A stretch of 64,000 nucleotides of DNA from positions 26,733 through 90,732 of the forward strand of contig JALIHJ010000068.1 in assembly GCA_022984795.1 (NCBI GenBank). The letters are read 5' to 3'. Source of the DNA: Fabrea salina (lineage: Eukaryota > Ciliophora > Heterotrichea > Heterotrichida > Fabreidae). How positions within the stretch are numbered: position 1 is the first letter of the stretch; every line of letters starts with the position of its first letter. The notes under the pieces were generated by a model. The model did no database searches. It had not been told where the DNA came from and saw nothing but the letters and a program-made list of their open reading frames with translations. The translations under genes and the position numbers were made by a program. Positions 17,283 to 61,699 of the stretch are shown piece by piece.

Positions 17283-20200
17283 ATGAAAGGTGCTTGTGCT
17301 GTGCTTTTAGTTTTTGTAGGAATGGTTTCTGGGCTTCCTAATTGTGCTACTCCCAATTCTAATGGATATACTTGCGATAGCTGTGCTTCAAACTATTACA
17401 AAAGGGGGGCTTATTGCTATGAACACTGTCCCACTAGCTTTAGCACCAATCCAAATGGGAATTGTGATAAGGTTGATCCAAATGATGATGTAAGACAAGT
17501 TTTTGACCTAAATTTCAAAGACATAACTGACTACTCAGCTAATTCTGTGGACACTTTCAGTACACCTGACGGAAGTGCATTCAGGGACTCCCAAAACAAC
17601 CCTATTCCTACCCAAGAAAGGGGATTCTACTTCAAGTCTACTTCTTCTATGGTATCTGATCAACCCTACACTTACTTCATCTATCACAGATTCGCCTTTT
17701 TGGTGAGGCCTAAAGGTACAGGAGTACTGATAGAAGCTAAAGATGACTCTAAGACTCACCTAACTCTGGAGTTCGATGGAACTCATTGGCGTTACAGAGC
17801 CAAAACACTTAGAACTTCAGACTCTGTTTACTTAGACAAAGAAGTCACTTTGCCTCAGAATATGAATGCTTGGGATAGGTTTTTTTTTGGCACCTGGAAT
17901 TGCCAAGTGGAAGGTGGTTTTGAATTCCTTTCTAGGAAAAATGATGGCTCAGAAATCAAGACAAAAATAGAAGACCACTGGATAATTAGTAGACCTGATA
18001 TAAGCACCCTGAAGTGGTACATTGGGGGTGGATTCACTGGGTTTGTCTACAGAATCTATTTTGCTAATAGTCATGATGAGGGTGGTGTCGGCGCTCCTTG
18101 GGATCTATCACGCTGTGAATTCAACTACTACGTGGACAATGACGGTTCTTGCAAGGAGTGTTCTCTGTGCAGTAATAGCTGGCCTTGGTGTTACAAAGAC
18201 AATAACTGCATTATATGTGATGAACAAGCTGTTTCTTCTTCCTCTGATTGCAATTCTGTAACTCAAGAACCAGATTGCTTTTTGTGCGACTACAAGTGTT
18301 CTAACTGCGATGAGTTCAACTGGATCTGTAAGTCTGGTTTCTGTATCTCTGGGTCTGTGTTTGCCGGAGGAGTGTGCTTGAATGCCTGTCCAAGTGGGTT
18401 TGGTAGTTGTCCTGGAACATTACCCACTGCTGCAGTCTTAGAAGAAGACTTCACAAGGTTCCCCAAAGACTTCACTAACTTCTACAGTGGAAGTAGCTCT
18501 TCAACAAGCCACCCATTTCAGACTGGGGGTGCCTCAGACCTACTGCCTATGAAGAACAGAGGAGTCTACTTCACCTCTAGCAGGTACATGACTTCCACTA
18601 ACCCCTTTGAGTTCTACCACGACTTCAGTATTGCTTTCTGGGTCAAAGTGTCTACTTCTGGCAAGATTCTAGCTGAGTCAAGCTTCCTTGAAATCAGTGA
18701 CTCAGGCATGACACTCACTCTCGAAAACATCACACCAACTACTACTTCAGCTTCAGTCTCGGTGTCTGCTACTTCAAACTGGGTGTTCTTGGCTTTTGTG
18801 TGTGAGTTCACTTCCAGCTACCAAACCAAGTTAACTACTTACAAAGACAACACTCAAGACAGCACTGCCTCAACTGCAGACTACATCTTCAGACACTCTA
18901 CAGGCAACAGCATTCAAATAGGAGGACACGACTCTTCTGGGTTCATTTACCGAATCAAGATATGGCAGACTGCAAAGACTGACTTCAGTGCTGAGTATGA
19001 GTTTTGTGGAAGCTCTAACTGCTCAAACGACTTCTGGGAGTGTGACTACAACCAGTATGAAGATGGCTCTGGTAACTGTGTAGCTTGTGACGGAACTTGC
19101 AGCGAAGGATGTGTAAGAGGAACTGACTGCATTCCTTGTTCTGATGACTTGTGTGACGAGTGCACTAGTTTTGATGATGGTGCTTGCACTTCTTGTGTCT
19201 CTAATGCTTCTAGTGAGCCCAACTGCGTTTGCGACTCTGAGTTTTATGCACTAGAAAACGAATGCAAATCCTGTTACTCAGGTTGTAGTCAGTGTTCTTC
19301 TTCTGAGTATTATCAATGCTCAGCTTGTGTCTCAGGCAGTTACCTACTCTACTCCATGATGTGTGTTTCACCTTGTCCTACTGGGTATGACAACCCATCA
19401 ACTACTTGTGACCTTTCTACTGAACTAGTGGTGGACTTGCAGTTCTACGACCAAATCAAAGGAGACTTAGACGGGTTCACCTTTGGTTCTAACATAGATA
19501 ATTTCTATCCTGACCTAGACACCAACGACCCCTGGCCAGCCAAAGACAGAGGCTACTACTTCCACACTAGTGCCTTTACCCAGAAATCACTCCTAATTGC
19601 TCCTAAGTTCACTGTACTGGGATGGCTCAAGCTCACTTCTGACTCAGGCACATTCATTTACAAGGGAGACAACTCAGCTGACCACAAACTCCACATTACT
19701 TTCAGTGGAGGAAGCATTTCAGTGGACCTGACTACTGTAGACGAAGTGGTCTCTGGGTCTGGATCAACCGACTTAAAGGACTCATGGAAGTACTTTGCAG
19801 TGAGTTCAGACATACTGGGAACTGGAGAAACCAAGCTTACAGTCACCATAGACTCCTCTACTGAGTTTACTGCCCAGTCCTCTGCAGCTACTTTCTTTGA
19901 TGACGACTCTACTCATAGACTCACAATAGGAAGCAGTAGTTCCTCTTTTGAGGGATTTTTGTGGAGTTTAAAGGTGTTCCAGACACCTGACAAAACAGGC
20001 ACTGACTACCCCTTCTCAGGTTCAAGGAGTGACTGCCCTATTGAACAGTTTCCAGACTCAGAAGGGTGTTCTAGTTGTGTGGGATGCTCTGAAGGGTGTG
20101 TGAGGGCAGAGCACTGTAACTTGTGCAAGGATGAACTGTGCCATAAGTGTGATACCTTTGGAGTAGGATGCAAAGAATGCAAAACTAACGCTGGTGACTC

Positions 20201-23200
20201 CTCTGGAACTTGTCAATGTGATACAGGCTACTTCAAGAACTTAGATGAGTGTGTTGAGTGTACTACCAACTGCGATGCTTGCACTTCTTCGGATTTCCAT
20301 CATTGTACGGATTGCAGTTCTGGTTACTTGTTGATTGAAGGAGTATGTCACTCATTCTGCCCTACAGGCTACTCTGATGTGTCTGGAACTTGCACGACCT
20401 CAGACAGCTTTGTGTTCCACCTACAACCTCACGCCATTCAAGACACTGTCACAGACACCCAATCATCCATTCCAGTGCAGACAGGCAAAGACACTTCCTT
20501 CTATCCCACTGCAGACTCCACAGATCCTATTCCTGCCAAAGACAGAGGGTATTACTTCACAGGCACTTCCTACATGCAACTACCGCCTTACACTGGAACT
20601 GCTTCTCCTTTGTTGGCTCTGGGTCCCGAGTTTACTTTAACTATGTGGACTAGACCTGTTAGCCAAGGCACTCTCATCTCCAAGCAAGAAGACTCTTCTA
20701 CTGTGCCTACTAAAATTGAAGTTGGGCTATCTTCCATGAAGACTTATGTAGACCTAGAAATAACTGGGTACACTACTCAGACAGATACTCAAGCACTTAC
20801 TGAAGGATGGAACTTCTTAGCTGTGAAGACTTACCTAGACTCTGCAGTTCCTGAGTTCAAACTCTCTTTGTTCTTAAACAACACTCAAACACTCCAGCAC
20901 AGCTTAGGAGAAAACTGGTTAGAAGACCTAGAGTCAGGGTTCTTGTTTACAATAGGAGCCAAACACTCAGACCAAAGCACAATTACCAACTTCTACACTG
21001 GGTTTATATGGGAAGTAAGAATTTACAACTCAAACAAAGATCCTACTACTCTATTGGAGTCTTCTAGTTGTGACTTCTGCAGTTTCTGTCCTATAGACCA
21101 CCAGGAACAGTGTTTACCCAACTGCCTGATAACTGACTTCTGGAATGGAAGTGAGTGTGTGGAATGTGACTCTGAGTGTACAAGTGGATGCTCTAGACAA
21201 CACACTTGTAACTTGTGTATAAACTCCTTGTGCATAAACTGCAGTAGCTTTGAAGAAGGAGACTGTAGTGAGTGCAAGGCTAATGCCTCTGGAAACCCTT
21301 GTGTATGCGACCAAGGCTACGGACTAGACAGACTTGACCTAGAATGTATTGAGTGTGAGTCTTCTATGGGAAGAGAAGTGATTAACAATAAGTGTTACTG
21401 TGCAGAGGGGTACTTCAACAACAATTCTACTGGAATAGACTGCCAAGAATGCACCGCTAAATGCTCTCAATGCTTTCCCTTAGACCTAGACTGTGTAGAC
21501 TGCCAATTAAAAAACTCAGTTAGCGATTCTTCTGGAGACTGCGTGTGTCCACCTTATTTAAGTCTTAAAGACAAAGAGTGTGGATGCGAGCAGGGTTACT
21601 ACCTTGACTCAAGTCAGTGCTCTGAATGCCCTTCCCTTTGCACTGGCTGTCTTAGTTCCGAAGAGTGCTTAGAGTGTGTAGAAAATGCCAGCATCAACCA
21701 AAACTCAGTCTGTGTTTGTGACCCTGGATTTGCCCAAAACTCTTCAGAGTGTCAAGAAAGTTACTTCCACGCAAGTCTCCACGTGACTTCAATAAACAAC
21801 CTTTATCTCAACTTCACAAGTCCTCTCAACAAGACTCTGGACAAAGAAGACATTCAAGTCACAGTAGATGCTAAGTTCAGCTACGAGATCGAAAAGAAGT
21901 CACCTAAAGAGTACTTGGTGTACATGAACTACCAAGAAGTGGTTGAAAAGAACCAAGTAGTTAAGCTGGACTTCCAGGCACCCTACATCTACAGTAACTC
22001 CAGCCAATTACTCTTCGAACAAAGCCTCCAAAAAGAACTCTACGAGTATGACCCTTACAGAGTCCAAGAGAAAAGAGGAGAAGAAGCAGGCCAGGACCTA
22101 TTTGCTTTAGCTTCAAGTATTGGAGCGTTATCAAGCATTGCAGCTCCTAGCCCTACAATCTGGCCAGTAGCCAACACTTTGCAGATTATCTGTTACATTC
22201 CCCTAACAAACCTTCCAATAACTCCTAGACTCAAAGGGTTCTTCAAGTCCCAAAGTCTGTTCAGAATGCTTCCTAACTCAGTTAACTACGTTTCAGAGAC
22301 CAAAGACTCGAACACCCACAAAAGATCTAGGGAATTCGGGTACTCCTCTGGACAGTTCTTAGTCAATGCAGGAAAGCCCTTGAGTGTTCTGTTAGCTATA
22401 TTAGTATGCTGGCCGTTTATCTGGCTTATGAGTAGTTGCAAAGTAGCTTTTATCTCCAAAAAGTGCTGTAAACTTCTAGATAAGTACAAACTAGGAGTCT
22501 TTATAAGGTACTTAGTGCAGTCTTTTCTGGACCTGCAAGTAGCTGCCTTGGTTCAAGCTTACAACTTTCCAGAGTCAGAAGTAATGAGTATAGTCAGCTT
22601 TGTTTTGGGGACTGCATTCTTAGTTTTCTTAAGTGGAGTGCCTGTAGCCTTGCACATACTCACAACTAAAAAGTTCAAAACCGACGGAGAAGAACAAGCT
22701 AGGTTCCAAAGAACTTTCGGAAACTTTTACTCAGAATTTAATGTTTCCAGGAACTCTTCAAATAAATACTTTTACTTTGTGTATTTAGTGCAAAGACTAC
22801 TGTTTGCAGTTAGTTTGGTGGTTCTAAGCAACTACCCTACTGCCCAAGCCACTGTAAACCTAGCTGTTTTAGTTGGGTTCCTTTTTTTTGTGACGAGGTA
22901 CATTCCTTACAAAGACCCCTTTGTGCATGTTTCAAACACTCTTTCTCAACTTGGAGTTCTTCTGCTATTTACAGTCCTTAGTTACCTGCAGTTTACAGAG
23001 ATAGAACTGGGCTCCAAAACTGAAACTTTCCTAGTCTATACAACCTTTTTTGTTTTGGGAACTCACAGTCTGGGGTCATTCTTAAGCTTCTTAAAAGGAC
23101 TTTCGGACATCATCAAGAAAAGAACCAAAACCAAAGTGCGCCCACAAGTCAGTTTAAACGAAATAGTCAATCCTTCCCAAGACACCAGTGCTTTCTTCAA

Positions 23201-23228
23201 ACGTGAAACCAAAAGTGCCATTCGTTAA
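17283..23228 (+). CDS. Giant Cys-rich modular surface receptor (LamG-like x4, GFR-like, multi-pass C-terminus)
   Basis: 1981 residues with a signal peptide (MKGACAVLLVFVGMVSG). Four laminin-G/concanavalin-like domains follow at roughly residues 70-300, 390-590, 715-925 and 1040-1270. Each has a recurrent K(D/E/N)RG(Y/F)YF strand. They are separated by furin/growth-factor-receptor-type Cys repeats (CSEGCVRAEHCNLCKDELC). A longer Cys-rich stretch (about 1275-1480) leads to a beta domain (about 1485-1560). About six transmembrane helices lie between 1695 and 1940. The C-terminal module recurs in the genes at 41, 48 and 53 kb. Such proteins are common in ciliates and are thought to act in cell-surface adhesion or sensing; no ligand is known. 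Confidence 0.85.
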   Translation: MKGACAVLLVFVGMVSGLPNCATPNSNGYTCDSCASNYYKRGAYCYEHCPTSFSTNPNGNCDKVDPNDDVRQVFDLNFKDITDYSANSVDTFSTPDGSAFRDSQNNPIPTQERGFYFKSTSSMVSDQPYTYFIYHRFAFLVRPKGTGVLIEAKDDSKTHLTLEFDGTHWRYRAKTLRTSDSVYLDKEVTLPQNMNAWDRFFFGTWNCQVEGGFEFLSRKNDGSEIKTKIEDHWIISRPDISTLKWYIGGGFTGFVYRIYFANSHDEGGVGAPWDLSRCEFNYYVDNDGSCKECSLCSNSWPWCYKDNNCIICDEQAVSSSSDCNSVTQEPDCFLCDYKCSNCDEFNWICKSGFCISGSVFAGGVCLNACPSGFGSCPGTLPTAAVLEEDFTRFPKDFTNFYSGSSSSTSHPFQTGGASDLLPMKNRGVYFTSSRYMTSTNPFEFYHDFSIAFWVKVSTSGKILAESSFLEISDSGMTLTLENITPTTTSASVSVSATSNWVFLAFVCEFTSSYQTKLTTYKDNTQDSTASTADYIFRHSTGNSIQIGGHDSSGFIYRIKIWQTAKTDFSAEYEFCGSSNCSNDFWECDYNQYEDGSGNCVACDGTCSEGCVRGTDCIPCSDDLCDECTSFDDGACTSCVSNASSEPNCVCDSEFYALENECKSCYSGCSQCSSSEYYQCSACVSGSYLLYSMMCVSPCPTGYDNPSTTCDLSTELVVDLQFYDQIKGDLDGFTFGSNIDNFYPDLDTNDPWPAKDRGYYFHTSAFTQKSLLIAPKFTVLGWLKLTSDSGTFIYKGDNSADHKLHITFSGGSISVDLTTVDEVVSGSGSTDLKDSWKYFAVSSDILGTGETKLTVTIDSSTEFTAQSSAATFFDDDSTHRLTIGSSSSSFEGFLWSLKVFQTPDKTGTDYPFSGSRSDCPIEQFPDSEGCSSCVGCSEGCVRAEHCNLCKDELCHKCDTFGVGCKECKTNAGDSSGTCQCDTGYFKNLDECVECTTNCDACTSSDFHHCTDCSSGYLLIEGVCHSFCPTGYSDVSGTCTTSDSFVFHLQPHAIQDTVTDTQSSIPVQTGKDTSFYPTADSTDPIPAKDRGYYFTGTSYMQLPPYTGTASPLLALGPEFTLTMWTRPVSQGTLISKQEDSSTVPTKIEVGLSSMKTYVDLEITGYTTQTDTQALTEGWNFLAVKTYLDSAVPEFKLSLFLNNTQTLQHSLGENWLEDLESGFLFTIGAKHSDQSTITNFYTGFIWEVRIYNSNKDPTTLLESSSCDFCSFCPIDHQEQCLPNCLITDFWNGSECVECDSECTSGCSRQHTCNLCINSLCINCSSFEEGDCSECKANASGNPCVCDQGYGLDRLDLECIECESSMGREVINNKCYCAEGYFNNNSTGIDCQECTAKCSQCFPLDLDCVDCQLKNSVSDSSGDCVCPPYLSLKDKECGCEQGYYLDSSQCSECPSLCTGCLSSEECLECVENASINQNSVCVCDPGFAQNSSECQESYFHASLHVTSINNLYLNFTSPLNKTLDKEDIQVTVDAKFSYEIEKKSPKEYLVYMNYQEVVEKNQVVKLDFQAPYIYSNSSQLLFEQSLQKELYEYDPYRVQEKRGEEAGQDLFALASSIGALSSIAAPSPTIWPVANTLQIICYIPLTNLPITPRLKGFFKSQSLFRMLPNSVNYVSETKDSNTHKRSREFGYSSGQFLVNAGKPLSVLLAILVCWPFIWLMSSCKVAFISKKCCKLLDKYKLGVFIRYLVQSFLDLQVAALVQAYNFPESEVMSIVSFVLGTAFLVFLSGVPVALHILTTKKFKTDGEEQARFQRTFGNFYSEFNVSRNSSNKYFYFVYLVQRLLFAVSLVVLSNYPTAQATVNLAVLVGFLFFVTRYIPYKDPFVHVSNTLSQLGVLLLFTVLSYLQFTEIELGSKTETFLVYTTFFVLGTHSLGSFLSFLKGLSDIIKKRTKTKVRPQVSLNEIVNPSQDTSAFFKRETKSAIR

Positions 23229-23371
23229 CTAGTTTAATTTAATTGTTATGTTATTGAGCCTTTTAAGAACACAGAGAGTGTTGACTTTTTTGTGGGCCTT
23301 TTAAGTTGGCTACAGTTTCTTCTTCTGTGAACTCAATCAACAAAGTTTTTGATACTCGTTAACTAATTAAT

Positions 23372-23617: not shown

Positions 23618-23627
23618 TCTTAATTAA

Positions 23628-26444: not shown

Positions 26445-27409
26445 TTAATACAAGTTTTTAAAGCCCAAAAAGCACTTAAACCAAACAAAACACGCAAACA
26501 CATACCAACCCCCATGTAAAGGGGCATTTTGTAAAAGTCAATGTACCTTTCTAGAGACAAAGCGTCCAGCACCTTCAAAGGCCAGTTTGCAAGTGAGTAA
26601 GGCCAGTTTAAGTTGAAGTACACCCAGTCCACTCGTCTAGTTCTCCGCAGCTCAAAAGGAACCAACATCATCAACGCCCTAGTTCTTCTGTAAGTCACTC
26701 CCCACAAGTGGAAGCTCTCACTGAAAGTTTCTTTCTCGTAAAGCACTTTGGGTTCTGGAGGCAACTTAATCCCTGCAACTGTTCCAGTAATCTTTTTAGA
26801 GGACTTTAAGTACTTGCTTAGCCAAAAGGGGACTCCTGGGTACTCGCAGTACTTAGGTTTAAAGTTGTGTTTGAAGCCTTCACAAAACTCTTCCAAACTA
26901 ACCCACTTGCAAGAAGCAACTTCTTCATTAGGTTCTAAGTTGATGCTTCCAGGAACTGTTTGCAGGAACACATGAGTGCTCAGAAACATGTTGATCTTTT
27001 TGAAGCTTCCTGAGTAAGGGTTGACTTCCCCCAACCAGCCTAAGTAAGCAAACTGTTTGTGGTTGTCTAGGTGGAGTCCTACTTCTTCTCTGGTTTCCCT
27101 CACTGCAGCTTCATAAGGAGACTCCCCTGGCTCCAACTTGCCTCCTGGAAAAGCTATGTGGCCACTATGTCTGTCCCCTGGGTAGATGCTTCTTTTTATG
27201 TAAAGCAACTGCACGTCTGGGTCTTCCCATTTCCTTAAAAAGCCTTTAAGGGACTCAATGTTCCAGTTTTGAGCTAGCACAGGAGGAGTTGTTAAGGGGA
27301 CTTTTGGGACAAGTCTGAAAACTACACTGACAGCAGCTCTAGTTGCTGCTTGCTTCTGGAAGGGTGGGTTAGGCAGTTTTGCTGCGATTTCCAGGAGTCG
27401 CTGTGTCAT
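26441..27409 (-). CDS. Nudix hydrolase, CoA-pyrophosphatase-like (NUDT7/8 type)
   Basis: 322 residues. The Nudix box is clear: GKLEPGE-x7-RETREEVGL, giving the GX5EX7REXXEEXGX pattern that binds Mg2+. Upstream, LLYIKRS...HSGHIAFPGG matches the motif specific to CoA diphosphatases (NUDT7, NUDT8, NudL), which cleave CoA and acyl-CoA. A C-terminal hydrophobic helix (MGVGMCLRVLFGLSAFWAL) suggests membrane attachment, not a standard feature of that family. No PTS1 tripeptide is seen. The start codon is 3 bp from that of the divergent jacalin-like gene. Confidence 0.8.
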   Translation of the reverse strand: MTQRLLEIAAKLPNPPFQKQAATRAAVSVVFRLVPKVPLTTPPVLAQNWNIESLKGFLRKWEDPDVQLLYIKRSIYPGDRHSGHIAFPGGKLEPGESPYEAAVRETREEVGLHLDNHKQFAYLGWLGEVNPYSGSFKKINMFLSTHVFLQTVPGSINLEPNEEVASCKWVSLEEFCEGFKHNFKPKYCEYPGVPFWLSKYLKSSKKITGTVAGIKLPPEPKVLYEKETFSESFHLWGVTYRRTRALMMLVPFELRRTRRVDWVYFNLNWPYSLANWPLKVLDALSLERYIDFYKMPLYMGVGMCLRVLFGLSAFWALKTCIN

Positions 27410-27412
27410 AGT

Positions 27413-28435
27413 ATGGAAGAAAAGTCTATAGCGTGTGACAGGCCTGTAGGACAGCGAGGCCCAGAAAGTGACTTTTACAACGACTTAGAGGTACTGGCTA
27501 CTGCGGAGCACTTTTTTTTTAAGTTCAAACTAAACAAAATCAGAGTCTGGCACATTCCTGGAGAGACCTGTGTAGGGATTGAGTTAGACTACATCAACCC
27601 CAGCAACAACGAATTGATGCGCCCTGGTCCCCACATTGGCTACACCACTGACCTCAATATAGCTTGTGCTGACTTACAACTTGACCTGGACGAGTACGTG
27701 GTGGACTTCAGAGGAGCTGCAAAAAGCAAAGTGGACTTTCTTCACTTCAGAACCAACAAAGGAAGGTACGCTGAGTTCGGGAACCCAAACGCACAAGGCA
27801 GGTTCCGGTACAGAATTCCTTCTAAGTCTTGTTTGATTGCTTTGATGGTGGGACTGAGCTTTACTCTTGAGTACATAGAAATAGCAACTATGCCAGTGGA
27901 GTCCATGAACATATTTCCAGAACCAGAAGTTTCTATGAGTGCTTACTACCCAACGTGTCCTTCAATAGTGTACAAGTCGAGGTACTACGGAGTAGAAAAA
28001 CACAACTGCATCATGGTAGACGACTTCTACTCACTCAACTTGCACTCCACTATTAAAAGGAAAACTAGCAAAATAGCTGAAGTCAACGCTTTAGTTACTT
28101 CTAAAGGCATCTTTGGCTTAGAAGTTGTGTACTTAGTTAGTGGCAACTACGAAACTACCAACTACAACTACCAGAATGCCTACGGCGAAACAGATTTCCA
28201 AAGACAACTGTTTCAAGTAGGCGAAAACGACTCTATAACTGGGGCAAGTGTGTCAATGAATAGCAATGGAATAACTTCAGTTACTTTTGAAACTTTTAAA
28301 CGGAAAACCCAAACCCTTGGCAGGAAAAAAGGTGACCTGCACCAAGTTTCTATTACCCACGGCTGCGAAGTAGTTGCCATGAGGGGATACTTCAGTTCAA
28401 GTGGCTTGCTAGGGTTAATTTTCTACTATGTTTGA
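27413..28435 (+). CDS. Jacalin-like lectin domain protein, two domains
   Basis: The start is taken at MEEKSIACDRP (340 residues); an earlier in-frame Met lies inside the Nudix gene. The first half matches a jacalin-like beta-prism: LNKIRVWH, GIELDYINP, LDLDEYVVDFRG, then VDFLHFRTNKGRYAEFG and LEYIEI. The second half (about residues 200-340) repeats the pattern more loosely (GIFGLEVVYLVSG, GENDSITGASVSMNSNGITS, VAMRGYFSSSGLLGLIFY). Jacalin domains usually bind mannose or other glycans. There is no signal peptide, so it would be cytosolic. It ends in TGA. Confidence 0.6.
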   Translation: MEEKSIACDRPVGQRGPESDFYNDLEVLATAEHFFFKFKLNKIRVWHIPGETCVGIELDYINPSNNELMRPGPHIGYTTDLNIACADLQLDLDEYVVDFRGAAKSKVDFLHFRTNKGRYAEFGNPNAQGRFRYRIPSKSCLIALMVGLSFTLEYIEIATMPVESMNIFPEPEVSMSAYYPTCPSIVYKSRYYGVEKHNCIMVDDFYSLNLHSTIKRKTSKIAEVNALVTSKGIFGLEVVYLVSGNYETTNYNYQNAYGETDFQRQLFQVGENDSITGASVSMNSNGITSVTFETFKRKTQTLGRKKGDLHQVSITHGCEVVAMRGYFSSSGLLGLIFYYV

Positions 28436-28449
28436 TCAATATAATAACA

Positions 28450-48246: not shown

Positions 48247-51200
48247 TTAATTAGCTACTGCTTCTAAGGTGTTGTTTTCTGTTTCAAAATTCTCAGGACT
48301 TGCTATTTCTGGAACTACTTTTGCTGGGTTTCTCCTTTCAAAGAACAGGCGGTTTTGGGTTCTATCCATCTCCGTGACCTCGCTTGTTTCTACCTGTTCT
48401 TTCTTACAGCACTTTTGGTATACGAAGTAGCAGATTGTAACTAGTGACTGGAATGCAATTGCACCTACTACTAAGTACATTATGGAGTTTTCAACTAGCC
48501 AGTCAATGCTTCGGAAGTCAGTTTGCAGGAAGTAGATCACTAGTAGGAACACTAGACTGATAACTACTTCAGTTGAGACTGAGGCTAGTTGGGTCTTTGC
48601 TTCTTTGTAAGGAGCTACTTTGAATAAGAACACAGTGTACCCAACACCTAAAGCAGCATTGATACCAGCTTGGAAATATGGAAAGTCACCAAGTAGAACC
48701 AGGCTCATCGAAAAAACCATTCTTCTTAAGATAAATACTGGGTAGGTTAAGCTGGGGTTGAAATTAGAGCTGCAGCCGAACTCGTAGAAGAGTGTTCCCC
48801 AGCTTAAGTAGAAGTTGGATTCTTCACTTAGAGAAGTAATCCAGTCCCTGTACTTCTTGCAGAATCCAAACAACACAAAAGGAGTTGCCACTATAGAAAG
48901 GGTAACTAAGAACCCTACTATAAAGTTAACAACTCCAATTGTTTCTGAGTCAGGAACTGAAGACACCTGTATAAAACAAGCTATCGACAGTTCCAGGTAA
49001 CATTGAATCCAGTATCTTAAGAATGCATTGTACCTATACTCCCTCAGCACTGGTTTGAGTTTTTCCTGCAACTTTGGAATCCTGGAAAGCAACCACACAA
49101 TAGGCCAACTCAGAAGTATTACGAACATAATCACAATGTTCACTCCAGCATTGAACAAAAACATTTCTGAAGTTATTCCGTACTTGTTTTTGTAGTGCTT
49201 TGAATCTTTCCTTGTGACTAACTTAAGTAAGTAGCTGAATAAGTCAGAGGCGTATTGGAACACATCAAGTCCTTCAAACAAACCCTTCAATGTAGGAGTT
49301 AGTGGGTTGCTAGTCATAATGAGGTAAGAAAGTAGTTGCATGGTGTTCATCATTGACCAAATGTCTGCAGGGTTGCCGTTTATTAGTATAGACACTGCAC
49401 CCATAGCTCCTGCTGCTGCTCCTGCTGTTTGGGCTGTTGTCTTAGCTTTATCAAATAGAACTTTTCCCGGGTCATACTTTGATAAGCTTGTTTCTAGTTG
49501 CTCAATTCCCAAACTAAGCCCTGAAGTGCTGTTTACTTCAGACAAAAACTCCAAAATAGCTATTTCTCCTTCTGCTACATAAGTCTCAAAGTCCAGGTCT
49601 ATTTCATAATTGGTGTTGCTTACTTCCTTGAATGAGTAGGTGTATTCTATGCTTTTGTTTTGGAGTTGAACGGCAATGCTTTCCTTGGTGAGTGAAGACA
49701 CTAGTTGCTCTGAAAAGGTCAGTGTAAGCAGGTTGTCATTGTCACAAGTCAAGTTTGAGTAGAAGTTGGTACAGACTTGGTCTCTTATGAATCCTTCTAA
49801 GCACTCACAAGTTGAAATTAGTTATTGTGGCAGTAGACGTACAAGTTGAGTAGGTCCTGCTTACGTAAACTTGATGAAGGTAGTTCTTCGAAGTGCAATC
49901 TGCAGGGTTGAATCCAACTTCTATTCGCTTATTTTCTCCTTTGTAAATAAAAGGATAGCTGGAATCAATAGGATTAGAGTTCAAATCCAGTCTCTTGATC
50001 ATAGGGAATCCATTCCTCTGCCCAGTTCCAGGCATTTCTACTCCTAAAGAAAATGAGTTCCTTCCTCCTGAACTCAAGTGCTCCACTTCTAAGTAGTAGG
50101 ACTGTCCTTCTTCTAAAGCTATAGAGTTAGACTGGTTCTCTCCCCAAACAAAGTAGCTATGCTCTTCTGACTCCTGACTTGAGTTGATGATTTCTTGCTT
50201 GTTGAGTGGGTTGGAGTCGGTGCTTAAGTATACTCTAACACTTCCCCTGAAAGAAGCATAGAATACATAGTCTCCTGTCCTTGGTGGCTTTAAAAGTCCG
50301 TAGATAAGGGAGTCGTAGTCATCCATAGTTGTAAGGATAGTTGCTGAAGGAATGATTGTTTTCTCGATTAACTCACTCTCCACTCCAATACTACCTGCAA
50401 TGTAGGTTTCTCTCACTAGCCCTGCACTTCCTTGGTAGTAGTCTCTGTTCTCCAAGTTGAAGTAAGATGCACTACTGCACTTGATAGTGTTGGATGTCGC
50501 TTCGATGGTTTGGCATTGAGATCCGTCTACCTCTACCTGGATTCTGGAAGTGTCACTGGGGAAGGACTTGCCAGTGACTGTAGCTTGTATTCCGTTGTTT
50601 GAGTTGAAGGAGACAGTTTCAACTGCAGCCAGAGTTCTGAACCAGTACTGGTCTCCTTCTAGTGTGTAGCCTCCTATCCAGTATAGTGCTCTTATTCTGC
50701 CATTTAGCTTGTACTCCACATTCTGATCTCCATGCACATTGCTACCTACTACTCCATTCAGAATGTAAGGATCAGAGGTTTCAACAAATTCACTCTCAAA
50801 TGCCACTTCTAGTCCTTCTATGTTCAGGTAGTTTATTTCGTCTTTATGGCTTTCCCCAGCAATAAAATGCAGGCCAATGGTGTCTCCAGCAGCTCCTTCA
50901 CTTGGAACCAGACTCATTATGGGATCAGGCCAAAACCACCCAAATGCACTGGTCTTCGAGTATATTTCCCCAGAGTTGTGCAGTGCTTGTAGGTTAGGGT
51001 TACTTGTATCACTTGAATCCCAAGGAGGAGTGAGACATTCAATCTCATCTGCTTTCACAGAGAGTATTTCGCAGTCCTTTCCATCTAAAGTGACTTGGTA
51101 GTTGCTGGCATCCAAGTCACCTGTGAAGTCCCCAAACAAGTACAGACTACTCAGCCCATAGAAGTATTGTGGATCAGTAATTCCCTTGTTTGGGGTGGCT

Positions 51201-51250
51201 ATTTGGGTCACACTTACAGCTTGGCACAATCCTAGCAAGAACACAATCAT
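48247..51250 (-). pseudogene. Receptor-family paralog with internal deletion and frameshift
   Basis: The 5' part (49805-51250) encodes a signal peptide (MIVFLLGLCQAVS), IPT-like domains and a PA14-like domain (PPRTGDYVFYASFRGSVRVY), parallel to the first ~445 residues of the 41-kb receptor. It then stops after CTSTATITNFNL. Starting a few bases away in another frame, TCECLEGFIRDQVC leads into the beta domain and the multi-pass C-terminal module (to 48247). About 660 residues present in the 41-kb paralog (IPT-Cys units, LamG and most cysteines) are absent at the junction near 49,800, and the frame is lost. No 16-nt intron with GT-AG ends fits. Two separate genes, a decayed gene or a misassembly remain possible. 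Confidence 0.65.
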
Positions 51251-51862
51251 ATTTATTAATTCTCCACCTTACCTTAACTTTAGTTAGTTACTTACTTCTG
51301 GGTACTAAACCTAAGCACCCAGAATTGGTTTTAGAGCTCACTTTCTTGGAAATATGACAAAAGGGGTCCATTTACTAAGAAAATGCCTAGCTAAGTCAAG
51401 GTTCTTGTTAAGTAATGAGACTTAGTTCCAATCAACTACAAGTAGTTAATCACTGTACTCAGTTTTGGCTCACATCAGGAAGCACAAGCTATATAGGTCT
51501 GTTCAGTCCCTTTTGAACAGAACATGGGTATTCCAAACTTCTTAGACTGGCAGAGTTCCGTTTCTAGAAAACACTCTCCCAAGAGTTTACACTATCTCTG
51601 CATACAGAACTTAGGCACAACTTTGAACAAAATACTTCTTGAAAGCACAAGGTAGTTTTGTTTCAAGTTGGCTCTGTACAGGACACTAGGAACTTGGACT
51701 TATGGTGTTTATGACTTGCAACCCTGTGAGCACTTTATTGCTTATTTGCTCAGCTTTGTGTAGATGCACATACATATCAAACTACTTTGGAGAGAACAAA
51801 GACGCAGAAGGAACAACATGACTTAAGAAACCTACCAGCTACTCCAACTTATATTGTCTTTG
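51251..51862. other. Gene-free interval
   Basis: About 610 bp upstream of the deleted receptor paralog. Stops are frequent in all frames and no family resemblance was seen. The first ~60 bp are AT-rich and probably include its promoter. Confidence 0.4.
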
Positions 51863-53558: not shown

Positions 53559-56500
53559 TTAACTGATTATTTTTCTTCCTCTAAAGAACTCTAGTGGATT
53601 CCCTTGATCGATTCCAGGACTTTGTTCTTCGGTGGCAATATTACCCCCTTGGGTTCTGTTGACCACTTTAGTTTCTTGTAGAGTGACCACCCTAGCACTC
53701 TTTCTTTCCTTAAAGAAAGAGTAAACTCTGTAGCCAAATTCAAGAATTGCAGTGGCACTCTGGATTACAATCACTCCCAGAACTAGGTATAGTATAAGGT
53801 TTTCCACTTTGTAGAAGCTGTCCTCCCATTCACTGTTGAGAAAGTACATCACAGCAAAAAACACTAAGCATACTGCTGCTTCAGTGATGCTGGCCAGTAG
53901 TTGCTTTGTCTTTTCTAGATTTGGCCTCACTGTGCAAGTAAACAAACCGTATGCTAGTATTATTGCTGTATTTGCACCAGCTTGGATTATGGGGTAGCTA
54001 CCCAAGAGTGTCAGACTTCCTGCCAGTAGTAGTCTGACTGCCACAAACAAAAAGTAGGTGTAAGGAGCTTTGGGTTTGTTTCCCCGGTCAAATTCATAGA
54101 ACAAGGCTCCCCATGTGGCGTAGAAGTCTGAGTCTTCAGTTGAGGTCTCTATTTCATCTGCTTTCTTTCTGCAGAATAACCATAGAGACACAGGGGTAAC
54201 TACAATAAAGCAAAGTACCAGTCCAGCTGATGCATAGCTTGCTATCTCCAGTGTATTAGCCTCCGGAAAGTCAGATAACTGGATCAAGCATGCAATTGTT
54301 AAGTCTAAATAGCATTGGATCCAGTACCTGATGAACACGTTGTACTTGTATTCCTTCAACCACTTTTGGAGTCTTTCCTCACCACATGTGAATGTTTTCG
54401 ATACCAGCCAAATAAAAGGCCATGCTGCTAAAAGCACAACCAATATTGCTAAGTTCGTGGCAGCTGTTACCATGAAAAGACTTGAGGAGAACTTTGAGGA
54501 GTAGTCTGTGGAGTCACTACCTGTAATAACTTCTAAAGCGTAGTCTAAGTAGACCCTGAAAGACTCCAGCAAGTTGATTCCTTCTAAAAGTCCTTTGGTT
54601 CTTGGAGTTAGGGGATTGTTGCTTAAAGTTATGTAAGATACTACCTCAAGGGTGTTCATTAGGTTCCACAGAGTTGATGGGTTGGGGTTGACTAAACTGA
54701 ACAAAGCTGTGGCTGTTCCTGCTGCTGCAGTTAGCGTTTGGGCTTGCTCTTTGGCTTCTTTAGTTTGGACTCCAGCTAAGTCATACTCTTGCAGCTTGGC
54801 TTCAAAGGTGTTGTTAGCTAGAGTGTGGTTGAGAGTGCTTAGGATCTGAGTAGTGAATTCCACCTGAATCACTTCTCCCTCTGAAACAAATGACTTGAAG
54901 TTTAAAGTGATTCTGTAGCTGCTGAAACTAAGTTCTTTTAAAGAGTATGTGTAGTCAATGGTTTTGTTATGGAGTTCTAGCTTGAGCTTGTTTTTGTTTA
55001 AGGATGCTTTTAAGTCTTCTGAAAATTCAAGACTTAAAGAGTTGTTGTCTTCAGTTGTTAAGTTACCATAAAAGTTTACTGGTTCTTCTGGTCCCTCTGG
55101 CTCTTGAACACTTGGTTGGAACTTGTTCAGCTCAGCTTCAAGTGTGCTACTGCTCAAAGTATGGTTCAAGTTACTTAGAATGCTGGAAGTGAACTTTAGT
55201 TGAACCACTTCTCCCTCCGAAACAAATGACTTGAAGGTTAGGTTGATCCTGTAGCTGCTGAGACTAAGTTCTTCCAGAGAGTAACTGTACTCAATAGTTT
55301 CATTCTGCAGCATCACTTCAAAGTCATCTTCTCTAAGGGATGCTTTTAGGTCCTCTGAGAAGCTAAGTTGCAGTGAGTTGTCTGCTTGAGTTGTGAGATT
55401 AGCTTCGAAAGTTAAGTCTGGGTCATACTCACAAGCCTCTGTTGCTGAATTCCAAGAGTAGTCTGTATTGCACTGGCAGTCGGAAGAAGGAGAGGCATTC
55501 TCAATACAAGACTGGCAACTAGAAAAGTCTTCGCAAGTTTTGCACTGCTGGTCATAACAAAGGTTGCACGAGGAGTCGTTTCTCACACAGCCAGTTTCTT
55601 GGCAGTTCTGATGGCAGGTCCCACACGAACTGTTTTCTTCGTCCCAGTACTCGTTTATGCTGCAAGTAGCAAGGCATTGATCCGAATTGTTACTTGGGCA
55701 ATAGCTACAGCCTCCCGAGCAACCAGAAGATTGTAGTAAGCTAGAAGGATCATAGTCAGTGTTGTAGATCCTGAACTCCCACAAAAAGCCATGGAAAAAC
55801 AACTCCTTTGCACCAGAACTTGAGTATGCAGCCCCAATCAAGCAAGTGTAGCCACTAGTAATATCCTGGTAGAATTCATTTCCAAAGTCTTTAACAGCTG
55901 GGGCATTCCCGTTGACTGAAACAGAGACTTTGTAGCTAGAAGACTCTACATAAGACCTGAAGACTAAAAAGCTCCAATTAGTAGTCAAAGAATCAGTCTG
56001 CGTAATATGCTCCGCAGAACTTGAAATCCCAATCATTCCTTGGAATTCTTGACTTGAACTTATAAAAAGTCCAAATTTAACCCAAGTGCCAGAATCTTCT
56101 CTGGAAAATATATGTCCCCCGAAAGACTTAGGCATAACCCAAGCTACCATTGTGAACTTAGGAGCTATAGTGAACTCCTTCTCTGCGTCGTTAGCATGAG
56201 GAGGCAGTTGCATGTAGCTAGAGTCTCCATCGAAGTAATACCCTCTTTCTTTGGTGGAAATGGGATCAGTTGGGTCGTAGTTTGGGTAGAAGTTGTTGTC
56301 TTTGCCTGTAAGCACTGGGATGGAGTTCTTTTGGTCGTTTACAATATCAAGGATCACATTGTCTAGGCTCAGGTGGAAGACAAAGATGTCAGAAGGATCG
56401 CAGATTCCTGAGTTCTCAGTGAATCCAGTGGGGCAAAAAGGAATGCACATGCCTTGAGTGAGGTAGTAACCTTCTGAACAAGCTGTGCAACTGTCTACTC

Positions 56501-57461
56501 CTAAGTTACTGCAAGAATCACAGTTGGCGGAACATTGGAGGCACTGATTTCCATCTCTTACACAGCCCATAGAACAAGAACCATCACAGCTTTGGCAGTT
56601 ACTTCCGTCCCAGTACTGATCATGGCTGCAGTCCCATAAACAGCCTGCAGCAAAAGAGTCATTACACACATCATCATTTCCGATTGAGGTTGTGTTGACT
56701 TCCTGGAGGATCCGGATCTTGTAAATAATCGCTTGACACTCAAACCCTCCTATCTGAATGTGATCTCCTGTTGGGTGTCTGAAGATTTTATCGACACCGC
56801 CGGTACTTGCATCCCCAGCTCCGTTAACATACCTCTTCAAGACAGTTCCAGAGCTACTTGAGAATTCGCAAGTGAAAGCAGCATAGTACCATTGATTTAC
56901 ATTGAAAGTAAAGGTCAACTTTTCATAAATTTCATTCCCAGCAGTGTCTTCTAGTTTCAAAGTCATTCCATTGTTTTCATCAGTCCCTCCAGTGTCAATC
57001 GTCAGGTAGTCTCCTTTCTTCAAAAGAACTCCAAAGTTCTCTGTTCTAAACCACAGAGTAATTGTAAAGGTATAGTGCAAGTTAACTTCATTCTTAGACC
57101 TGATGAACCGATTGGAGTCTACGTAGGTTCCTCTTTGTTTCATTGGAAGCGGGTCATCACTTTCTCCGTTGTTAAAAGGAAAGTAGGTATTTGCATCAAA
57201 ACCAGCTTGGAATTCACTGAACTCAAAACTCGAAAAGGTCTCTTCTAAAACAACTCCACTGGTAAAGGTGCATGGAGACCCAAACCCATAAGGACAGTGC
57301 TTCAGGCATATGCTATTTACTTGAATTCCAGAGCTGCACTGTCCACTCTGGCACTCCCAAGGTTGGGTTTGGCAGTTAGAGCACTGGTTGTCACAAAGAT
57401 TGTTGGGGGCACCTCCGAAAACTCCTTTGAAAACTAACAGAATCACAAAAGCCTTTACCAT
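53559..57461 (-). CDS. Modular surface receptor with two LamG-like domains, GFR cysteines, two beta repeats, multi-pass C-terminus
   Basis: 1300 residues in one frame with a signal peptide (MVKAFVILLVFKGVFG). LamG-like domains lie at about 70-265 and 360-585, each with a KxRGxYxD/F strand (PMKQRGTYVDS, STKERGYYFDG). GFR-type Cys repeats are at about 270-350 and 590-700. Two tandem beta domains of about 90 residues follow (LSFSEDLKASLREDDFEV and LEFSEDLKASLNKNKLKL), then the shared helix-rich module (about 900-1260). Segments 54640-57461 are repeated at 58898-61699. It lies just downstream of a GTPase gene on the same strand. A surface role is inferred. Confidence 0.85.
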   Translation of the reverse strand: MVKAFVILLVFKGVFGGAPNNLCDNQCSNCQTQPWECQSGQCSSGIQVNSICLKHCPYGFGSPCTFTSGVVLEETFSSFEFSEFQAGFDANTYFPFNNGESDDPLPMKQRGTYVDSNRFIRSKNEVNLHYTFTITLWFRTENFGVLLKKGDYLTIDTGGTDENNGMTLKLEDTAGNEIYEKLTFTFNVNQWYYAAFTCEFSSSSGTVLKRYVNGAGDASTGGVDKIFRHPTGDHIQIGGFECQAIIYKIRILQEVNTTSIGNDDVCNDSFAAGCLWDCSHDQYWDGSNCQSCDGSCSMGCVRDGNQCLQCSANCDSCSNLGVDSCTACSEGYYLTQGMCIPFCPTGFTENSGICDPSDIFVFHLSLDNVILDIVNDQKNSIPVLTGKDNNFYPNYDPTDPISTKERGYYFDGDSSYMQLPPHANDAEKEFTIAPKFTMVAWVMPKSFGGHIFSREDSGTWVKFGLFISSSQEFQGMIGISSSAEHITQTDSLTTNWSFLVFRSYVESSSYKVSVSVNGNAPAVKDFGNEFYQDITSGYTCLIGAAYSSSGAKELFFHGFLWEFRIYNTDYDPSSLLQSSGCSGGCSYCPSNNSDQCLATCSINEYWDEENSSCGTCHQNCQETGCVRNDSSCNLCYDQQCKTCEDFSSCQSCIENASPSSDCQCNTDYSWNSATEACEYDPDLTFEANLTTQADNSLQLSFSEDLKASLREDDFEVMLQNETIEYSYSLEELSLSSYRINLTFKSFVSEGEVVQLKFTSSILSNLNHTLSSSTLEAELNKFQPSVQEPEGPEEPVNFYGNLTTEDNNSLSLEFSEDLKASLNKNKLKLELHNKTIDYTYSLKELSFSSYRITLNFKSFVSEGEVIQVEFTTQILSTLNHTLANNTFEAKLQEYDLAGVQTKEAKEQAQTLTAAAGTATALFSLVNPNPSTLWNLMNTLEVVSYITLSNNPLTPRTKGLLEGINLLESFRVYLDYALEVITGSDSTDYSSKFSSSLFMVTAATNLAILVVLLAAWPFIWLVSKTFTCGEERLQKWLKEYKYNVFIRYWIQCYLDLTIACLIQLSDFPEANTLEIASYASAGLVLCFIVVTPVSLWLFCRKKADEIETSTEDSDFYATWGALFYEFDRGNKPKAPYTYFLFVAVRLLLAGSLTLLGSYPIIQAGANTAIILAYGLFTCTVRPNLEKTKQLLASITEAAVCLVFFAVMYFLNSEWEDSFYKVENLILYLVLGVIVIQSATAILEFGYRVYSFFKERKSARVVTLQETKVVNRTQGGNIATEEQSPGIDQGNPLEFFRGRKIIS

Positions 57462-58897
57462 TTATTCACCTTAAACTGATCTAAAGATTGAATTCTATTT
57501 ATCATTTGTAGGGTGTACAAAAGGAATCATTTCAATTGTACACTCTTCTTAGGTATGCTGGGGAGTTGAATAATACAATTTCCAACTTCTGATCGAAAAT
57601 ACCCCAACCTTCATTATTAGAGTGAATATCCAGGCAAGTAAAGACGATTTCTCTGCATACAAGATCTCCTAAGTCTATACTAAGTCTGAATTTACTTAGC
57701 TTGCTTCTTAATTAAAAGGTTTTCAAGGTCAAGTGGTGAAAAGGTGTGCTTGAATTCATCGTCAATTTCAAAAACTACACTTGAGGCTTTTGAGTTCTTG
57801 ATAGAGCTTAAGAGGTTCATAATCTCCCATTCCAGGTCACTTTCTTCTCTTCTGAGTTTAAGACTGACTGTAAGGTACTTTTCTGAGCTCATTCCAAGAC
57901 CTACTGCAGCTCCTATGCTTCCAGTAACTACTCCACACCCAACCAAGCCCCTTCCAATGAATCCTCCTCCTAAAGCCAAAGTCACCACAGAAAGAGCACA
58001 CCCTGCCCAAGTCTTTACTTTAGCTGTGTGAAGCTTCTTAGAAAAAACCTCTAAAAACTTTTCTTTCTTTTTATTTATTGTTTTTTTGATCTTGTTTTTG
58101 AGTTCTTCTGGCAACCTAGAGTTTCCAACTATTCTGTTGAGCTTTTCTTCAAAAGAGCTTTTTCGAGTTCTCAATTCTTCACTGAACTTGCCAAACCAAG
58201 TTCCTAGTACTCTGCATAAGCTTAGTTTGAAGTAGTAATACTGAATGTCTGCTTTCATATAGTAAAGTTTGAATAAAAAGGCTTTTCGAAGGTACTCTCC
58301 TTTGATCCTTTCAAAAGGTCCACTTAGGACTTCACAGACAGGAGTTTTAACTGAGTTGTGGATTTCTTCAAGTTGCTGCTCGAACTCATTGCTCAGTGGG
58401 TTACTGAGTAAGAGTTCCTTTGCTTTGGATTCAAGTTCTTGTTTCTTTTGGTCTATTTGGGATTTAGTTGCTTGGAGTTTTCCTAGAATGTTGGCATTAG
58501 CACAGTTTATGGAGTGTTCAAGTCTTTTGGCTACTTCACACTTGGGGCTGTTTCTTATGATCTCAGTAATTCTTCGGAGTTCTCTGCAGCGACCGTCTTT
58601 ATTAAACTCAATAAACTCAACATGTGCGTTGCACTCATCCTTGAACCTTCTTCTAGTCCACTCCTTGTCTATTGACTTCAGAGTTTGTATGCCTTGGTTC
58701 CATTGCTTTTCTAGCTTTTGAGTGAAGTTTTGTTTTAGCTTGCTAAGTTCAGCTTGTTTTGAGTGATTCTTTACTACAACTACAATGTTGCTTTTGTGGG
58801 TTCTTTCTTTGAGCAACTCGTTGAATAACACAGGCATTATGGAGTCTTCAAAGTTGTTTGAGTGGGATTCTGCAATGATTAAAATTGTGTCGGAAAA
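54639..58897. repeat. Tandem duplication, proximal unit (about 4.26 kb)
   Basis: This block covers the 5' three-quarters of the receptor gene and most of the GTPase gene. It is followed head-to-tail by a second copy at 58898-63112. The proximal unit has clean frames. Confidence 0.85.
57692..58897 (-). pseudogene. Large GTPase (GBP/atlastin-like), truncated of its G1-G3 motifs
   Basis: The frame is open from the duplication junction (58897) to 57692, with a Met at 58837 from which 381 residues can be read. It begins in the middle of the G domain (SDTILIIAESHSNNFEDSIM) and lacks the P-loop and DxxG motifs, which are found only in the distal copy. A long helical region follows (FEEKLNRIVGNSRLPEELKN), then a Gly-rich hydrophobic segment (VVTLALGGGFIGRGLVGCGV) that could insert into membrane, and a short C-terminal domain. 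Without G1 and G3 it cannot bind GTP normally. If the duplication is an assembly artefact, this is simply the body of the real gene. Confidence 0.6.
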
Positions 58898-61699
58898 GAG
58901 ATACTACCTCGAGGGTGTTCATTAGGTTCCACAGAGTTGATGGGTTGGGGGCTGACTAAACTGAACAAAGCTGTGGCTGTTCCTGCTGCTGCAGTTAGCG
59001 TTTGGGCTTGCTCTTGGCTTCTTTTAGTTTGGACTCCAGCTAAGTCATACTCTTGCAAGCTAGTTTCAAAGGTGTTGTTAGCTAGAGTGTGGTTGAGTGC
59101 TTTAGATCTGAGTAGTGAATTCCACCTGAATCACTTCTCCCTCTGAAACAAATGACTTGAAGTTTAAAGTGATTCTTGTAGCTGCTGAAACCAAGTTCTT
59201 TTAAAGAGTATGTAGTCAATGGTTTTGTTATGGTGCCCTCAGCTTGAGCTTGTTTTTGTTTAAGGATGCTTTTGTCTTCTGAAAATTCAAGACTTAAGAG
59301 TCGTTGGTTTCTCAGTTGTTGTTACCATAAAAGTTTACTGGTTCTTCTGGTCCTCTGGCTCTTGGAACACTTGGCTTGAAACTCTTTTGTTCAGCTCAGC
59401 TTCAAGTGTGCTACTGCTCAAAGCATGGTTCAAGTTACTTAGAATGCTGGAAGTGGAACTTAGTTGAACCACTTCTCCCTCCAGAACAAATGACTTGGAA
59501 GGTTAGGTTGATCCTGTAGCTGCTGAGACTAAGTTCTTCCAGAGTAACTGTACTCAATAGTTTCATTCTGCAGCATCACTTCAAAGTCATCTTCTCTATG
59601 GACGCTTTAGGTCCCTCTGAGAAGCACAGTGAGTTGTCTGCTTGAGTTGTGAGATTAGCTTCTGAAAGTTAAGTCTGGTCATACTCACAAGCCTCTGTTG
59701 CTGAATTCAAGAGTAGTCTGTATTGCACTGGCAGTCGGAAGAAGGAGAGGCATTCTCAATACAAGACTGGCAACTAGAAAAGTCTTCGCAAGTTTTGCAC
59801 TGCTGGTCATAACAAAGGTTGCACGAGGAGTCGTTTCTCACACAGCCAGCTTGGCAGTTCTGATGGCAGGTCCCACACGAACTGTTTTCTTCGTCCCAGT
59901 ACTCGTTTATGCTGCAAGTAGCAAGGCATTGATCCGAATTGTTACTTGGGCAGCTACAGCCTCCCGAGCAACCAGAAGATTGTAGTAAGCTAGAAGGATC
60001 ATAGTCAGTGTTGTAGATCCTGAACTCCCACAAAAGCCATGGAAAAAACAACCCTTTGCACCAGAACTTGAGTATGCAGCTCCCAATCAAGCAAGTGTAG
60101 CCACTAGTACATCCCGTAGAATTCATTTCCAAAGTCTTTAACAGCTGGGGCATTCCCGTTGACTGAAACAGACTTTGTAGCTAGAAGACTCTACATAAGA
60201 CCTCGAAGACTAAAAATGAACAGTCAAAGAATCAGTCTGCGTAATATGCTCCGCAGAACTTGAAATCCCAATCATTCCTTGGAATTCTTGACTTGAACTT
60301 ATAAAAAGTCCAAATTTAACCCAAGTGCCAGAATCTTCTCTGGAAATATATGTCCCCCGAAAGATTCTTAGGCATAACCCAAGCTACCATTGTGAACTTA
60401 GGAGCTATAGTGAACTCCTTCTCTGCGTCGTTAGCATGAGGAGGCAGTTGCATGTAGCTAGAGTCTCCATCGAAGTAATACCCTCTTTCTTTGGTGGAAA
60501 TGGGATCAGTTGGGTCGTAGTTTGGGTAGAAGTTGTTGTCTTTGCCTGTAAGCACTGGGATGGAGTTCTTTTGGTCGTTTACAATATCAAGGATCACATT
60601 GTCTAGGCTCAGGTGGAAGACAAAGATGTCAGAAGGATCGCAGATTCCTGAGTTCTCAGTGAATCCAGTGGGGCCAAAAGGAATGCACATGCCTTGAGTG
60701 AGGTAGTAACCTTCTGAACAAGCTGTGCAACTGTCTACTCCTAAGTTACTGCAAGAATCACAGTTGGCGGAACATTGGAGGCACTGATTTCCATCTCTTA
60801 CACAGCCCATAGAACAAGAACCATCACAGCTTTGGCAGTTACTTCCGTCCCAGTACTGATCATGGCTGCAGTCCCATAAACAGCCTGCAGCAAAAGAGTC
60901 ATTACACACATCATCATTTCCGATTGAGGTTGTGTTGACTTCCTGGAGGATCCGGATCTTGTAAATAATCGCTTGACACTCAAACCTCCTATCTGAATGT
61001 GATCTCCTGTTGGGTGTCTGAAGATTTTATCGACACCGCCGGTACTTTCATCCCAGCTCCGTTAACATACCTCTTCAAGACAGTTCCAGAGCTACTTGAG
61101 AATTCGCAAGTGAAAGCAGCATAGTACCATTGATTTACATTGAAAGTAAAGGTCAACTTTTCATAAATTTCATTCCCAGCAGTGTCTTCTAGTTTCAAAG
61201 TCATTCCATTGTTTTCATCAGTCCCTCCAGTGTCAATCGTCAGGTAGTCTCCTTTCTTCAAAAGAACTCCAAAGTTCTCTGTTCTAAACCACAGAGTAAT
61301 TGTAAAGGTATAGTGCAAGTTAACTTCATTCTTAGACCTGATGAACCGATTGGAGTCTACGTAGGTTCCTCTTTGTTTCATTGGAAGCGGGTCATCACTT
61401 TCTCCGTTGTTAAAAGGAAAGTAGGTACTTGCATCAAAACCAGCTTGGAATTCACTGAACTCAAAACTCGAAAAGGTCTCTTCTAAAACAACTCCACTGG
61501 TAAAGGTGCATGGAGACCCAAACCCATAAGGACAGTGCTTCAGGCATATGCTATTTACTTGAATTCCAGAGCTGCACTGTCCACTCTGGCACTCCCAAGG
61601 TTGGGTTTGGCAGTTAGAGCACTGGTTGTCACAAAGATTGTTGGGGGCACCTCCGAAAACTCCTTTGAAAACTAACAGAATCACAAAAGCCTTTACCAT
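58898..61699 (-). pseudogene. Distal receptor copy, 3'-truncated and frameshifted
   Basis: It starts with the same signal peptide and first LamG domain as the 53.6-kb gene. It stays in frame to about 60,990, breaks, resumes at 60,909-60,316 and 60,153-59,707, and is then fragmented down to the junction. The multi-pass C-terminal module is missing because the duplication boundary cuts it at about the residue equivalent to 54,640. At least six frame breaks are present. It would not encode a membrane-anchored protein as written. Confidence 0.8.

Follow-up and report, generated by a model that had tools for sequence, protein, structure and literature searches.

The window analyzed here, a 64,000-nucleotide stretch from the ciliate Fabrea salina (assembly GCA_022984795.1), comprises positions 26733-90732 of contig JALIHJ010000068.1 (C68, which spans 90,732 bases) and includes its telomeric end. 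The long open frames of the window translate with the standard code. It holds genes for putative surface receptors in which different ectodomains are joined to one multi-pass C-terminal module, and this module recurs at about 120 places in the genome, broken copies included. The receptor loci are as follows.

17283-23228, plus strand: receptor 1 (P0001), with LamG-type repeats, cysteine-rich linkers and the C-terminal module; ATG at 17283, open frame 17262-23228
21759-23228, plus strand: constant module of receptor 1 (beta domain and membrane helices)
41132-45838, minus strand: receptor 2 (P0002), with IPT, PA14-like, IPT repeats, LamG-like, cysteine-rich stalk and module
41132-42616, minus strand: constant module of receptor 2, with a Pfam TRP match and an AlphaFold2 model
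48247-49821, minus strand: module frame of the 48-kb chimera (P0003)
49805-51268, minus strand: ectodomain frame of the 48-kb chimera (P0004), with IPT and PA14
49812-49819, minus strand: out-of-frame join of the chimera, where alignments to one donor group stop and those to the other group start
53559-57461, minus strand: receptor 4 (P0005), with two LamG domains, cysteine-rich stalk, the beta domain twice and membrane helices

Translation and Pfam searches recovered LamG, IPT and PA14 domains at these loci much as the original prediction had described them, some below cut-off. Three LamG-type stretches of P0001 pass Pfam, and a fourth was recognized by eye only, from a recurring RGxYF segment. 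P0002 contains four TIG/IPT stretches (4e-27), with PA14 (0.087) and LamG (0.0015) both below cut-off, and P0004 holds two IPT stretches and PA14 (1.3e-7). The doubled beta domain of P0005 (55128-55394 and 54792-55058) shows 72% nucleotide identity between its copies. An N-terminal hydrophobic stretch exceeded the hydropathy threshold in P0001, P0004 and P0005 but not in P0002, and no Pfam furin or EGF match over cut-off was found in the window proteins.

The module spans about 500 residues, with a beta domain followed by seven clear and two weaker hydrophobic helices. The modules of P0002, P0003, P0005 and P0001 align end to end, with 29-35% identity to the first, and the W-x3-N-T motif is present in all four, in agreement with the prediction that four loci share the same downstream block. 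In a 37-member alignment, W137 is found in 36, N141 in 35 and T142 in 34 modules, and R252, E330 and Q366 are invariant (37/37). About six helices had been predicted, whereas the structural model and the family-averaged hydropathy give nine membrane segments, seven clear and two weak, with the second weak one coinciding with the W-x3-N-T motif. AlphaFold2 with the 37-member input yielded a predicted local distance difference test score (pLDDT) of 80.0 and a predicted template modelling score (pTM) of 0.70 for the whole module, and 78.7 and 0.81, respectively, without the beta domain, which forms the first ~95 residues of the model. The top solved-structure matches of the whole model were S-layer SbsC domains (100 columns, E 0.029, probability 1.00). 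Since the SbsC matches belong to the model as a whole and Pfam Big_5 matched only weakly, the beta domain is likely, but not proven, to be immunoglobulin (Ig)-like.

No named family had been suggested for the module, which was taken as possibly undescribed. However, the module of P0002 exceeds the cut-off of the Pfam TRP family (PF06011; 35.6 bits against 28.5), as do 27 of the 48 matches across the genome by their own score, plus one more with its frame neighbours. These matches speak against an undescribed module, although not all members are recognized: P0001 matches weakly (0.13), P0003 and P0005 do not match, and 18 of the 37 modules reach E 1 or better. Comparison with TRP/polycystin and G-protein-coupled receptor (GPCR) folds, which had been suggested as a check, gave no solved-structure match for the membrane part at E 0.001 with the two models searched. 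Foldseek matches to GPCRs had E values of at least 0.56 and at least 2.1 in the two models (probability at most 0.16), and Pfam 7tm was found neither in the window proteins nor, among the 25 of 27 families listed for them, in the 37 modules. The module profile searched against sequences of solved structures gave best E values of 0.68 and 0.1, to unrelated proteins. No ML-like N-terminal domain (PF14558, PF02221) was detected in P0001-P0005 or in five scanned ectodomain loci, and none of the 291 and 51 pattern-matching stretches from viral and prokaryote contigs, respectively, was confirmed as a relative.

The assembly consists of 18,328,466 bases in 103 contigs. The union of three module queries and PF06011 gave 131 merged loci on 57 of these contigs, a number that includes 10 loci below 800 bases, some broken copies and some on near-duplicate contigs, and that is also a lower bound, since only part of the candidates was scored (e.g., 95 of 209 in one module query). 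Places without an internal stop amounted to 92/95, 79/87 and 84/87 for the three module queries. For the 107 of the 131 loci that were examined, domains on the same strand within 7 kb upstream lie in the frame of the module for IPT in 55 of 69 cases, LamG in 92 of 105, PA14 in 35 of 40, REJ in 4 of 6 and GPS in 4 of 4, compared with one third expected by chance. By ectodomain class, 45 of these loci have LamG only, 38 IPT/PA14, 4 REJ/GPS and 20 none, the LamG counts being lower bounds, as the genome search missed the LamG domains of P0001 itself. Some genes of the last class carry LamG after all (e.g., L101), and no Pfam match was found in L100, with a 2177-residue ectodomain, or in L103. Domain order is fixed, LamG being nearest to the membrane in all 22 IPT/PA14 genes that contain it. 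Cysteine accounts for 17% of the 60-residue stretch that precedes the beta domain and for 7% of the remaining ectodomain.

In four genes, none of them in the window, REJ, GPS and the module share one frame, and in L102 and L099 LamG-like, REJ, GPS and module lie in a single 1976-residue frame. The REJ match of the L102 ectodomain is strong (2.8e-29); its GPS was not listed in the whole-ectodomain scan, but scored 1.1e-6 in the last 124 residues and 9.2e-6 in the genome search. The genome holds 29 REJ loci (49 rows; e.g., C70:87478-89436 and C26:306565-308655) and 9 GPS matches over cut-off, four of each being tied to a module gene. Those apart from module genes may make up another set of polycystin-1/PKDREJ-like genes in this ciliate.

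The original prediction that different ectodomains are combined with a constant membrane module was supported by the module tree, by discordant divergence and by pairwise identities. On a tree of 50 modules labelled by their domain matches, each ectodomain class against all other rows required 11 changes, or 10 without six unclassed rows, and well-supported branches force at least 7 changes for LamG and at least 8 for IPT/PA14. Shuffled labels needed 17.1 or 15.5 changes, with values as low as those observed in 0 and 4 of 500 replicates. Since the changes are fewer than with shuffled labels yet many, ectodomain class is partly inherited and often switched. Synonymous divergence (dS) of ectodomain and module was discordant up to about sixteen-fold in single pairs, and in both directions: 0.75 and 0.10, respectively, between receptor 2 and L002, 1.28 and 0.08 between L011 and L012, and the reverse, 0.11 and 1.68, between receptor 2 and L014. 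Identities were compared for 26 of 30 genes (325 pairs), taking the 400 residues before the beta domain as the ectodomain. Modules were at least 80% identical in 38 pairs, 31 of which have ectodomains below 60%, while 11 other pairs show the reverse, with ectodomains at 75% or more and modules below 60%; L008 and L029 share 97% of the ectodomain and 49% of the module.

The borders of exchange were located in close pairs. Similarity is lost in the cysteine-rich stalk, no more than 250 nucleotides (nt) ahead of the beta domain, in 35 of 55 close pairs drawn from a set of 68, which share genes and are not independent events; the remaining 20 stay similar further upstream, some to the edge of the data. 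In a further 12 pairs, all of which include L008 or L009, the alignment starts no earlier than +261 to +294, at the end of the beta domain. The stalk and beta domain of L008 and of the 48-kb gene are 92.3% identical over 311 nt. Exchange thus prefers two borders, one in the stalk and one at the end of the beta domain, and recombination separates three exchangeable parts, namely ectodomain, beta domain and membrane part. The ratio of nonsynonymous to synonymous divergence (dN/dS) over 15 gene pairs was 0.18-0.42 for the module and 0.15-0.52 for the ectodomain, the latter saying little where, as in some of these pairs, the ectodomain types differ. These ratios indicate purifying selection on both module and ectodomain.

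The 48-kb locus is a chimera joined out of frame. Its DNA is 77-87% identical to the ectodomains of L003, L004, L006, L007, L012 and L022 up to gene coordinate 1682 (1673 for L003), and from coordinate 1689 on it is 80-92% identical to the modules of L029, L028, L008 and L009, with 91.6% DNA identity between the P0003 module frame and L029. The locus had been taken for a receptor with IPT and PA14 on the shared module; these parts are present, but they lie in two frames that overlap at 49805-49821.

The telomeric end of the window carries three further features.

54636-63117, no strand: indel-rich head-to-tail tandem duplication next to the telomere, with units 54636-58899 and 58899-63117
58899-61699, minus strand: truncated near-copy of receptor 4 with broken frames, part of the tandem duplication
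63559-64000, no strand: telomere with the repeat TGTTAGGG (CCCTAACA), at the end of contig C68

The two 4.2-kb units are 96.8% identical over their whole length (BLAST; 43 mismatches, 58 gap openings), with 78 mismatches and 26 gap events in the receptor part (MAFFT). The near-copy exceeds 99% identity to receptor 4 in the first 1200 aligned columns and then decays. It had been counted as a fifth family member cut off before the module; it is indeed truncated, but as one unit of the receptor 4 duplication it is not an independent receptor. Indel-rich near-duplicates also occur elsewhere, in C78/C58 (98.6%; 39 mismatches, 46 gaps) and C83/C54 (98.7%; 22 mismatches, 51 gaps). Together with the window end, they suggest alternative ends or uncorrected reads. 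Since contig ends carry such near-duplicates, individual chimeras, among them the 48-kb locus, could be assembly artefacts or somatic ones; across the family, the shuffling signal rests on many intact, diverged genes. P0006 (57692-58903, minus strand) has a second copy with broken frames (62048-63355, minus strand). By eye, its sequence suggests a P-loop GTPase, with LDHQG ahead of a hydrophobic strand; searches with P0006 gave no Pfam match over cut-off and no solved relative.

Clustering near a telomere had also been proposed. The placement of 120 of the 131 loci, each of at least 800 bases and on contigs of known extent, showed no departure from an even spread along the contig (Kolmogorov–Smirnov P 0.63). 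Within 20 kb of a contig end there are 46 of the 120 loci, compared with 39.1 ± 4.5 expected on the same contigs (P 0.08), and 76 have a neighbour within 10 kb, compared with 31.4 ± 5.5 expected. The family is thus tandemly clustered but not concentrated at ends within contigs. Over the whole genome, at most 22.5% of the sequence can lie within 20 kb of an end, and 46 of 120 loci is more than this, since many members are located on short contigs; this speaks mildly for the telomere proposal, whereas the uniform position within contigs speaks against it and leaves a subtelomeric antigen layout unsupported. Two places with identical PF06011 scores and opposite orientation, C75:4123-4866 and C75:66915-67658, lie near both ends of a 71-kb contig and are possibly an inverted repeat of chromosome ends.

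The TGTTAGGG repeat opens 38 of 40 contigs in a sample chosen for holding family or domain matches, and telomeres of the heterotrich Blepharisma are permutations of CCCTAACA, according to passages of PMC9942806. Since 38 of the 40 sampled contigs begin with the repeat, many contigs resemble entire chromosomes or their ends. The window also contains a B9-type ciliary gene and a kinesin-9-type gene, which, like the telomere repeat and the standard-code frames, are in keeping with a heterotrich that uses the standard code. It further holds a jacalin-like lectin gene (27296-28435) and a 123-bp unit repeated twice within an open frame (47120-47367, 96%). An Rfam and tRNA scan of the window gave no match.

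By analogy with known systems, the family is best explained, with slightly better than even confidence, as a large tandemly clustered set of ciliate receptors for adhesive contact or chemosensing that would act like CRMPs or MTA/MTB. A typical member has an N-terminal hydrophobic leader, an ectodomain of adhesive or lectin type, a cysteine-rich stalk, a probable Ig-like beta domain, the PF06011-related multi-pass module and a polar tail, with ectodomains formed by LamG repeats, by IPT-PA14-IPT with optional LamG, or by LamG-like and REJ-GPS. The LamG, PA14, IPT or REJ part may bind proteins or glycans displayed by prey, by partner cells or on the substrate, and stalk and beta domain could relay the signal to the membrane module. 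This module might then alter ion flow, perhaps of Ca2+, or cause a ciliary response or exocytosis, in line with what has been proposed for alveolate CRMPs. New binding parts would be paired with the conserved output part by recombination in the repetitive stalk. Several points weigh against this explanation: PF06011 misses many members and its match would be no proof of channel activity, the membrane part lacks a solved-fold match, copies with many stops occur on C52 and C50, 20 of 107 loci have no known ectodomain, and the same recombination pattern fits surface antigens without a signalling role.

A narrower form, which overlaps with this explanation, is a CRMP-type trigger in which contact receptors release cortical granules. 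CRMPs have been proposed as contact sensors for exocytosis in alveolates, and their anatomy is matched here, with GPS in four members; however, passages of PMC9670195 name three Tetrahymena candidates and two Toxoplasma CRMPs, not about 120 genes, and by analogy this form is possible but doubtful. Variable surface antigens, of which one or few would be expressed at once while recombination makes variants and the membrane part serves as a mere anchor, would fit the tandemly clustered copies, the recombination and the broken copies. Yet the conserved part is the module, whose 7-9 helices and invariant R252, E330 and Q366 exceed the needs of an anchor, dN/dS of the ectodomain lies below 1 as well (with little meaning for pairs of differing types), and concentration at chromosome ends was not observed within contigs, which makes antigens rather unlikely. 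Mating-type or self-recognition receptors with a type-specific outer part and a shared membrane exon are improbable. Passages of PMC3608545 and PMC10901506 describe MTA/MTB of Tetrahymena with a variable N-terminus and a terminal exon of furin-like cysteine-rich repeats and five helices, within which joining builds the complete genes, but about 120 clustered loci are not one expressed head-to-head pair; among the listed places, gene orientation points to a minimum of one divergent pair (C81) alongside other arrangements. That the assembly of noisy long reads only mimics shuffling, an artefact for which the indel-rich near-duplicates at the window end, C78/C58 and C83/C54 could be cited, is very improbable, since the exchanged pairs differ by 5-12% in the module, most have long open frames, and breakpoint offsets recur, albeit in pairs that share genes and are not independent.

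Beyond the contact or chemosensory explanation, a combinatorial receptor repertoire can be imagined, in which ectodomain, beta domain and membrane part would be cassettes joined at the two preferred borders. The joining might take place while the macronucleus develops, as in MTA/MTB, and would give clonal lines or generations receptor sets that differ; this is a speculative extension with a low chance of being correct. With more than 100 copies of one membrane part and swapped outer parts, the family resembles a repertoire of sensors that recombination has built. It is a clear example, within a very small ciliate genome, of binding and output parts of a receptor family with separate histories, and it places REJ-GPS beside a TRP-like module in a ciliate. 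It would make it possible to study how one cell assembles a diverse set of surface sensors, and whether alveolate CRMP-type and mating-type receptors stem from one recombining family.

Among the literature matches listed, judged by title or abstract opening, no ciliate family with these ectodomains was described. The family may work like CRMPs or MTA/MTB, and membership in CRMP, MTA/MTB or FLC is not claimed. In polycystin-1 and PKDREJ proteins, REJ and then GPS precede the membrane part, an order seen in only four of the 107 module genes examined; none of the 24 genome matches to PKD_channel (PF08016) overlaps a module locus, as compared by eye from their places. The membrane module of many members exceeds the curated cut-off of PF06011, the family of the fungal FLC proteins, which act in calcium homeostasis and many of which carry an ML-like N-terminal domain, one fungal subgroup being mostly without it (passages of PMC9600462). 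Unlike those fungal members, the Fabrea receptors have a probable Ig-like beta domain and large adhesive ectodomains in place of the ML-like domain. The family resembles Tetrahymena MTA/MTB in its variable outer part on a constant cysteine-rich and membrane part, and differs from the five helices, programmed joining and single complete pair per somatic genome of the latter. The likeness to CRMPs of Apicomplexa and Tetrahymena is one of anatomy only: outer adhesion domains, a cysteine-rich growth-factor-receptor-like region and a multi-pass C-terminus. In passages of PMC9670195, CRMPs have a cysteine-rich EGFR-type domain and 5 or 9 predicted membrane helices, are few genes each, with Kringle/MAR ectodomains in TgCRMPa and PfCRMP1, and have no ectodomain exchange reported, whereas such exchange occurs in Fabrea; GAIN is predicted there for the Tetrahymena members.

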